The notes below the pieces were generated by a model, which had not been told where the DNA came from, ran no database searches, and was given only the letters and a program-made list of their open reading frames with translations. Made by a program: the position numbers and the translations under genes. A DNA stretch of 64,000 nt from Lamellibrachia satsuma (taxonomy: Eukaryota > Annelida > Polychaeta > Sabellida > Siboglinidae). Each line of letters begins with the position of its first letter. Position 1 is the first letter of the stretch. Below are positions 9,001-62,849 of this stretch, piece after piece. The DNA is taken from contig BSQZ01000060.1 of assembly GCA_033239005.1 (NCBI GenBank), positions 416,001 to 480,000 on the forward strand, written 5' to 3'.

Positions 9001-12000
9001 CTCTTCTTTCTCGCCCCACTTTCCACCCTCCTCCTCGGTGCTCTATACCGATCTTTCTCGCCCCACTTTCCACCCTTCTCCACTGTGCTCTATACCCTTC
9101 TTTCTCGCCCCACTTTCCACCCTCCTCCTCGGTGATCTATACCCATCTTTCTCGTCCCACTTCCCACCCTCCTCCGCTGTGCTCTATACCCATCGTTCTC
9201 ACCACACTTCCCACCCTCCTCCGCGGTGCTCTATACCCATCTTTCTCGCCCCACTTCCCACCCTCCTCCGCGGTGCTCTATACCCATCTTTCTCGCCCCA
9301 CTTTCCACCCTCCTCCGCTGTGCTCTTTACTCATCTTTCTCGCCCCACTTTCCACCCTCCTCCGCTGTGCTCTATACCCATCTTTCTCGCCCCACTTTCC
9401 ACCCTCCTCCGCTGTGCTCTTTCCCATCTTTCTCGCCCCACTTTTCACCCTCCTCCGCGGTGCTCTATACCCATCTTTCTCGCCACACTTCCCACCCTCC
9501 TCCGTGGTGCTCTATACCCATCTTTCTCGCCCCACTTTCCACCCTCTTCCGCGTTCCTCAATCCCCATCTTTATCGCCCCACTTCGCACCCTCCTCCGCG
9601 GTGCTCTATACCCATCGTTCTCACCACACTTCCCACCCTCCTCCGCGGTGCTCTATACCCATCGTTCTCACCCCACTTCCCACCCTCCTCCGCGGTGCTC
9701 TATACCCATCTTTCTCGCCCCACTTTCCACCCTCCTCCGCGGTGCTCTATATCCATCTTTCTCGCCCCACTTTCCACCATTTTCCGCGTTCCTCAATCCC
9801 CATCTTTATCGCCCCACTTCCCACCCTCCTCCGCGGTTCTCTATACCCATCGTTCTCACCCCACTTCCCACCCTCCTCCACGGTGCTCTATACCCATCGT
9901 TCTCACCCCACTTCCCACCCTCCTCCGCGGTGTTCTATGCCCATCGTTCTCACCCCACTTCCCACCCTCCTCCGCGGTGCTCTATACCCATCTTTCTCGC
10001 CCCACTTTCCACCCTTTTCCGCGTTCCTCAATCCCCATCTTTATCGCCCCACTTCCCACCCTCCTCCCTGTCCTATATACCCATCTTTCGCGCCGAACTT
10101 TCCATCCTCCTTCGCGGTCCTCAATACCCATCTTTCTCCCCCACTTTCCACCCTCCTCCGCGTTCTTTCTCGTCCCACTTTCGACCATCCTCCCTCTTTC
10201 TGACATCTACGCAGTCTTCCCTTCTTAAACTTGGTCAGCCACTTCTCCTTCCACTTTTTTACTGCCTTTATTCTCTTCTTTATTTTCTTCTTAAAATTGT
10301 TCAGCCACTTCTCCTTCCACTTTTTTACTGCCTTTATTCTCTTCTTTATTCTCTTCTTAAACTTGGTCAGCCACTTCTCCTTCCACTTGTTTACTGCCTT
10401 TATTCTCTTCTTTATTCTCTTCTTAAACTTGGTCAGCCACTTCTCCTTCCACTTGTTTACTGCCTTTATTCTCTTCTTTATTCTCTTCTTAAACTTGGTC
10501 AGCCACTTCTCCTTCCACTTTTTTACTGCCTTTATTCTCTTCTTTATTCTCTTCTTAAACTTGGTCAGCCACTTCTCCTTCCACTTTTTTACTGCCTTTA
10601 TTCTCTTCTTTATTCTCTTCTTAAACTTGGTCAGCCACTTCTCCTTCCACTTGTTTACTGACTTTATTCTCTTCTTTATTCTCTTCTTAAACTTGGTCAG
10701 CCACTTCTCCTTCCACTTGTTTACTGACTTTATTCTCTTCTTTATTCTCTTCTTAAACGTGGTCAGCCACTTCTCCTTCCACTTGTTTACTGCCTTTATT
10801 CTCTTCTTTATTCTCTTCTTAAACTTGGTCAGACACTTCTCCTTCCACTTTTTTACTGCCTTTATTCTCTTCTTTATTCTCTTCTTAAACTTGGTCAGCC
10901 ACTTCTCCTTCCACTTGTTTACTGACTTTATTCTCTTCTTTATTCTCTTCTTAAACTTGGTCAGCCACTTCTCCTTCCACTTGTTTACTGACTTTATTCT
11001 CTTCTTTATTCTCTTCTTAAACGTGGTCAGCCACTTCTCCTTCCACTTGTTTACTGCCTTTATTCTCTTCTTTATTCTCTTCTTAAACTTGGTCAGCCAC
11101 TTCTCCTTCCACTTGTTTACTGCCTTTATTCTCTTCTTTATTCTCTTCTTAAACTTGGTCAGCCACTTCTCCTTCCACTTGTTTACTGACTTTATTCTCT
11201 TCTTTATTCTCTTCTTAAACTTGGTCAGCCACTTCTCCTTCCACTTGTTTACTGCCTTTACTCTCTTCTTTATTCTCTTCTTAAACTTGGTCAGCCACTT
11301 CTCCTTCCACTTGTTTACTGACTTTATTCTCTTCTTTATTCTCTTCTTAAACTTGGTCAGCCACTTCTCCTTCCACTTGTTTACTGCCTTTATTCTCTTC
11401 TTTATTCTCTTCTTAAACTTGGTCAGCCACTTCTCCTTCCACTTGTTTACTGCCTTTATTCGCTTCGGCAGTAAAACACCCTCCATTAAATGAGAAATAC
11501 ATTTACAGTCGAAGGAGAGCACATATTTTAAATGACTAAGTAGAGTCGGATGTTTCTAGTACGCATTTACAGTTCACCAGCCATCTTACTGGTTTTGGTT
11601 GAAATGGCAATGCAGTGGGACATAGGTATAACATTCTTGTAATACCAGTTTACACGTGTGCATGACATTAATCTACAACATTATGCCTTGTTTCATCCAG
11701 TCCTACCTCTTCAAAGATCCCACTGGCTTGTTTCGTCCAGTCCTTCCTCTTCAAATATCCTGTTGGCTTTTTTTCGTCCAATCCTTCTTCAAAGATCCTA
11801 TTGCCTTGTTTCGTCCAGTCCTTCTTCTTCAAAGATCTTACTGCATTTTGTCGTCCAGTCCTTCTTCTTCGAATATCATACTGCCTTGCTTTGTCCAGTT
11901 ATTCCTGTTCAAACATACTACTGCCTTGTTTCGTTCAGTCCTTCCTCTTCAAAGATCTCTCCCCGGGTTTCCTCCGCATGGTGGCGCTCAACATCAAGCC

Positions 12001-62849: not shown

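Follow-up and report, generated by a model that had tools for sequence, protein, structure and literature searches.

Minisatellites that overlap exon-intron boundaries have been described from human genes in segmental duplications, where units of about 30 bp on average alter intron length (PMC2812944). That paper reports 27 intron modifications (106 of 2,948 gene loci), which are recent, and in 66% an alternative transcript is found as well. The tubeworm gene described here is similar in that minisatellite units overlap exon-intron boundaries and change intron length, while it differs from these internal tandem repeats in that 12 junctions are involved in one gene, the copies number up to 67, and splice use is predicted from sequence. 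In potato, an intron of the RdRp gene was gained by tandem duplication across an intron-exon boundary (PMC4974935). There too, a boundary-spanning duplication copied a working splice site; however, the potato case is one duplication, from which a new intron and extra exon sequence resulted, whereas in the tubeworm existing introns grow and the inferred coding sequence stays the same. Yeast cells deficient in Rad27/FEN1 accumulate insertions mediated by short direct repeats, in which ABA becomes ABABA, and insertions of up to 100 bp are described as well (PMC5677150). These are tandem duplications of similar size, some of them amplified further at one locus, but they are the phenotype of a mutant cell, described in the relevant part of that paper without a link to exon edges, and would supply a mechanism for the tubeworm by analogy only. 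Minisatellites near alternative exons of Caenorhabditis elegans (PMC4039745) appear to be related in topic only. The genome paper of the tubeworm Ridgeia piscesae (PMC9921365) covers intron length and includes a TRF run, and its sections on these subjects do not deal with junction arrays. No report of arrays of junction copies in tubeworms was recognized in the open-access literature, in a search hardly directed at tubeworms. Minisatellites at exon-intron boundaries (human) and boundary-spanning duplication (potato) are already known; what is unusual in the tubeworm is how densely they occur in one gene, how many copies they reach, and that introns already present have grown at an unchanged inferred coding sequence.

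The window, a stretch of 64,000 nucleotides from the 735-Mb genome of the deep-sea tubeworm Lamellibrachia satsuma, contains most of a gene for what is probably a four-repeat CNG-type potassium channel (CNGK-like), and more exons of this gene lie in both flanks, past each window end. Within the window, 33 exons and 32 complete introns were rebuilt with a masked codon-and-splice model that was completed by hand, the splice sites being placed mostly from reading frame and consensus. An unmasked ab initio exon search had returned 184-219 exons, mostly spurious, and was replaced by the repeat-masked model, which was checked against curated exons. The 31 exons between 11939 and 62849 are joined into a stop-free frame of 1572 amino acids.

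The best protein match is the annotated L. satsuma protein P0001, "Cyclic nucleotide-gated olfactory channel". Between its first methionine and residue 999, P0001 corresponds exactly to the 14 exons of 11939-31882, except for one acidic insertion of 280 amino acids, and its C-terminal end reads into the array after 31882. The splice choices of P0001 are those of the model at 19984, 21954, and 23312, three of the 12 array junctions; P0001 provides no test of 11939, and the remaining nine junctions were placed by frame and consensus. A GC donor (GAG/GCAAGT) is likely after exon 11939-12085, where the splice of P0001 agrees. Following 17300, the acidic insertion starts in the window frame and at the edge of an array of 78-bp units (17301-18230) that adjoins exon 17073-17300 and part of which P0001 contains in translation as an acidic repeat. 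The insertion was not found verbatim as a whole at this array, and the window frame stops after 126 codons; 17301-18230 is either an exon or an annotation error in P0001.

A full-length relative from Ptychodera, P0002, has four Ion_trans and four cNMP_binding domains, which suggests that the window gene encodes a CNGK-like four-repeat channel. Two channel repeats lie inside the window, with the filters GFGD and GYGD, and the others extend partly across the window ends. This layout, as well as P0002, agrees with the CNGK/tetraKCNG potassium channel, described as having four repeats, each with a cyclic-nucleotide-binding domain (PMC4749565). CNGK is known as a sperm channel. The identity as CNGK does not explain the arrays.

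Tandem arrays enclose 12 of the 66 junctions of the gene, and these belong to 12 different introns, with six donors and six acceptors (Table 1). The initial annotation had counted 11-12 such cases among 33 introns. All 12 of its junctions were checked and lie inside arrays, including the acceptor 62760, given there as probable and placed by TRF inside its array, while the complete introns number 32. The units are 16, 20, 22, 32, 33, 40, 43, 45, 49, 51, 53, and 74 bp long, nearly as first listed (40 bp instead of 41), and each contains 7-34 exon bases. They are all different from each other, so the expansions are separate events, as had been proposed. TRF and tiling show head-to-tail copies with units in the range of about 10-100 bp, which is characteristic of minisatellites (VNTRs), and the units overlap predicted splice junctions, as in internal tandem repeats at exon-intron boundaries.

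Table 1. Positions of the CNGK-like gene and of its junction arrays in the window.
Feature	Position	Strand	Exon bases	Junction	Support
CNGK-like gene, 33 exons modelled within window	2013..62849	+			codon/splice model, homologues, Pfam, flanking exons
Acceptor array, 40-bp unit	11684..11957	+	19	11939	TRF, 24-bp test, tiling
Donor array, 22-bp unit x28	19976..20586	+	9	after 19984	TRF, 24-bp test
Array starting exactly at donor	20896..21052	+	0	follows exon 20720-20895	TRF
Acceptor array, 74-bp unit	21361..21976	+	23	21954	TRF, 24-bp test
Donor array, 53-bp unit	23303..27461	+		after 23312	TRF, tiling, genome DNA search
Donor array, 32-bp unit	31863..32137	+	about 20-22	after 31882	overlapping TRF row, 24-bp test, tiling
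Donor array, 33-bp unit x58, few short gaps	39252..41203	+	26	after 39277	TRF, tiling
Donor array, 43-bp unit	45529..46353	+	34	after 45562	TRF
Acceptor array, 20-bp unit	50720..50846	+	9	50838	TRF, 24-bp test
Acceptor array, 51-bp unit, CA repeats interrupting	52642..54034	+	about 23-25	54010	TRF, tiling
Donor array, 49-bp unit	54838..55297	+	30	after 54867	TRF, 24-bp test
Acceptor array, 45-bp unit	60926..61170	+	10	61161	TRF, 24-bp test
Acceptor array, 16-bp unit x65	61727..62766	+	7	62760	TRF, tiling

The junctions were also compared with their surroundings directly, using 24 bp that span the junction and a threshold of 80%. A second copy with at least 83% identity is present within 300 bp at 11 of the 66 junctions; in the control, 200 shuffles of one 2.2-kb intron stretch, the maximum was 67%. 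The 12th junction, the donor after 23312, falls outside this test, as its copy is separated from the array by about 570 bp. Here, the junction copy (23303-23349) is followed by other sequence (23350-23919), which looks like a later insertion, and then by 67 copies of the 53-bp unit in 23920-27461. In a DNA search of the genome, the junction copy was 89% identical to the unit over 47 bp, and among the matches listed for this unit (at least 30), 30 of 30 lie inside its own intron, the junction copy included, which indicates that the array was born locally. The 53-bp unit was the one of the 12 searched in this way for a sequence common to the introns of many genes, as in introners, and the 12 units are mutually different.

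The extreme case is the intron after 39277, in which copies of the donor unit span 1926 of 2051 bp (94%) and the first copy consists of the exon end and the donor. In the array after 45562, some shorter copies lack the intron part, and there is a higher period of 76 bp. In the flanks, one exon has both its acceptor (39-bp unit) and its donor (46-bp unit) apparently duplicated, and one further acceptor is duplicated according to the 24-bp test only. Besides these arrays, one intron consists largely of a CGCC repeat (44718-45375; 164 copies, 99% match), whose end lies 26 bp from an acceptor downstream. The 7.2-kb intron 31883-39092 contains at 37420-38850 fragments that are taken to be reverse-transcriptase-like, as recognized by eye from their translations.

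One alternative is coincidence. Minisatellites would be distributed uniformly in introns, the ancestral introns would have been short, and some duplication windows would then cross junctions with no bias to exon edges. The window has 60 distinct arrays, and arrays with a period of at least 10 cover 47% of it against 8.8% of twenty 10-kb loci around kinase exons, so more straddling arrays are expected here by chance. The null model implied in the initial annotation is based on present intron lengths, and these were inflated by the arrays themselves. In the null model used instead, every array was collapsed to one unit and placed at random, and an array with at least 5 exon bases was counted as straddling. 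This collapsed null by itself yields 4.4 straddling arrays in the gene. The observed number is 10 of 46 arrays with a period of at least 10 (2.3-fold, P 0.005), in a gene chosen post hoc, and this count omits two donors (31882 and 23312), because the merged row given by TRF begins past the junction there. When the arrays were placed as blocks in the present intron, 3.5 were expected against the 10 (P 0.0006). Arrays that straddle a junction or lie less than 65 bp from it number 18 of 46, against 10.4 expected (P 0.004). All these tests within the gene are post hoc, since the gene was selected for the very feature.

An independent sample was taken from kinase genes, in loci picked before their sequence was seen. 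Ab initio prediction in these loci gave 87 junctions (43 donors and 44 acceptors) with zero junction-spanning copies; some of the exons are doubtful, and therefore junctions supported by kinase profile matches were used. This sample is small: it comprises 61 of 139 kinase exon matches and 95 junctions of 122 possible ends, 27 having been dropped for want of a site, for a splice score below 3, or for missing bases. Straddling is not enriched among them, with 3 of 95 junctions (3 of 57 in small loci and 0 of 38 in 10-kb loci) against 3.3 when positions were drawn at random from these loci, and the 24-bp test (at least 80%) finds the same three. One is the acceptor of an exon presumed from its translation to be CDK-like, with a 69-bp unit in 11 copies and 56 exon bases. 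The other two are both ends of an exon likewise taken to be Fused-like, with 105 bp x1.8 and 35 bp x9.1. Junctions of the CNGK gene are straddled more often (11 of 66) than those of the kinase sample (Fisher P 0.004).

The edges of the kinase arrays are clustered. In the first 65 intron bases, 14 edges were found against 3.7 expected (0 of 1000 permutations, P<0.001), and farther in there were 12 against 13.6, with bins (0-64 and 65-300 bp) set after inspection of the data. After removal of simple-repeat-like units, the first bin still has 13 against 3.5. One acceptor (L057) was re-called by hand once its array was seen, which changed the number of edges at 0-64 bp from 13 to 14 and that on the exon side within 60 bp from four to three. 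At two kinase loci, L027 (junction index 4412, minus strand) and L022 (6990, plus strand), an array starts or ends exactly at the junction without exon bases, like the array at 20896. Several of the myosin exon matches on contigs C18, C36, C5, C3, C26, C67, and C47 are enclosed by open frames 670-1819 codons long, a length suggestive of stop-free tandem arrays beside those exons.

The crowding of arrays into the first 65 intron bases of other genes indicates that something favours intron ends, and together with the excess inside the gene it makes coincidence rather unlikely as the whole explanation. The initial annotation had argued that the arrays are not due to chance and suggested a local mutational mechanism. 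The first statement stands inside the gene, where the excess survives a null that allows for array-driven growth, but finds no parallel in the straddling of kinase junctions. The second is favoured by the crowding near intron ends, while straddling outside the gene occurs at the random rate. The comparison of TRF repeats with splice sites against random positions, recommended in that annotation, was carried out on the 95 kinase junctions, and its result goes halfway towards the outcome named there as speaking against the idea, an overlap no higher than expected.

It was also considered that the arrays are a splicing feature, their repeated sites being kept because they are useful, as redundant sites or as ratchet points for the recursive splicing of long introns. 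In many arrays, GT or AG is indeed kept in most copies (e.g., 50/57, 25/27, 8/8, and 19/26), and the splice-site columns are the best kept of the unit in the arrays of 39277 and 11939 (rank 0.03 each). However, over 13 arrays these columns do not exceed the remainder of the unit in conservation (Fisher combined P 0.29); they are near the bottom rank at 45562 (1.00), 54010 (0.94), and 31882 (0.91), and sites are lost in other arrays, with AG left in 7 of 64 intronic copies at 62760 and GT in 12 of 20 copies at 45562 and 2 of 5 in a flank array at -2772. Recursive splicing requires AG next to GT. AG directly precedes GT in 3 of 7 donor units of the gene and its upstream flank, and GT directly follows AG in none of the 6 acceptor units of the window. 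Recursive sites are thus not the rule.

Nearly all decoys would also break the frame. As decoys were counted those GT or AG sites of the adjoining intron that agree with the true site at 7 or more positions of the surrounding 10 bp. The 12 window junctions have 258 of them, and their use would lead to a stop in 247, to a frameshift in 9, and to neither in 2. A simple matrix was used to score 242 decoys, those inside the arrays or close to them at the 12 window junctions and at one donor of the flank; 104 of them equal or exceed the true site, as do all 25 intact decoys of the array after 19984. The frame is open although 256 of 258 decoys would break it, and the exon-proximal copy must therefore normally win. 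The initial annotation had taken the exon-proximal unit for the true site, which appears to be correct judging from the 1572-residue open frame and from the agreement of P0001 at three junctions. Its suggestion of a splicing-related feature is not supported by the conservation data, and such a role is regarded as very improbable.

Within the units, the splice point is evenly spread. For 17 units, 14 from the CNGK gene and its flanks and 3 from kinase genes, the mean exon fraction is 0.52 (KS against uniform P 0.62). This shows that the splice site is not a breakpoint and is merely covered by the duplicated windows. Unit lengths show no restriction to multiples of 3 (6 of 17 units).

Another origin, in which introns are born when an exonic AGGT segment is duplicated in tandem (Rogers type) and the arrays are relics of that birth, would account for exon sequence within the introns, and a boundary-crossing tandem duplication is reported to have made the potato intron (PMC4974935). 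It predicts a repeat at both ends of the intron, but no TRF array reaches both and each of the 12 lies at one end, which leaves this origin highly doubtful. An assembly artefact can practically be dismissed, because although misassembly is a well-known problem with tandem arrays, private differences are interspersed among the 58 copies of the 39277 array (mean conservation of the unit 0.79), similar arrays occur on unrelated contigs, and two arrays of the gene are entered by the reading frame of P0001 as well, although the data behind P0001 may partly be those of this assembly.

The arrays are probably the result of minisatellite birth of the ordinary kind, which is somewhat more frequent at exon edges and is tolerated since pairing across the exon favours the exon-proximal copy. 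Each array would have begun when 16-74 bp, by chance including an exon-intron junction, were duplicated locally in tandem, and would then have expanded. As the exon end would be held by coding selection, the array could grow only into the intron, and the splice sites would be carried along. If exon definition applies, with splice sites paired across the exon, the copy proximal to the exon would be used, the decoys would be nearly invisible to selection, and junction-spanning duplications would be nearly neutral, so that they could be fixed and grow. The choice of the exon-proximal copy fits a rule reported for large introns, in which the 5' and 3' sites nearest across the exon are preferred (PMC9225289). 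The birth of arrays in this genome seems to be biased to the first tens of intron bases; as a first guess at the cause, based on general knowledge, duplications of the Okazaki-flap type might be phased by exon-bound nucleosomes.

Minisatellite birth at exon edges is in line with the evenly placed splice point, as random duplication windows predict, and with the similar structures in other genes (the presumed CDK-like and Fused-like exons). Against it, the excess in the gene is moderate and the gene was picked for it, and straddling in the kinase sample is at random expectation. The well-kept splice-site columns of 39277 and 11939 are also unlike pure drift, while 45562, 54010, and 31882 show the opposite.

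Growth by copying their own boundaries would be a route of intron lengthening apart from transposon insertion and intron birth. The arrays also constitute a natural test of splice-site choice among many sites of equal strength, in which pairing across the intron predicts the use of inner copies and pairing across the exon that of outer copies. A stronger statement, put forward tentatively, is that exon edges in the tubeworm lineage are hotspots of tandem duplication, where introns are repeatedly rebuilt from their own junctions and the exon-proximal site always has to be chosen. If so, this would point to exon chromatin or transcription being tied to tandem duplication in the germline, and the lineage would offer splice sites that occur naturally in up to dozens of copies.
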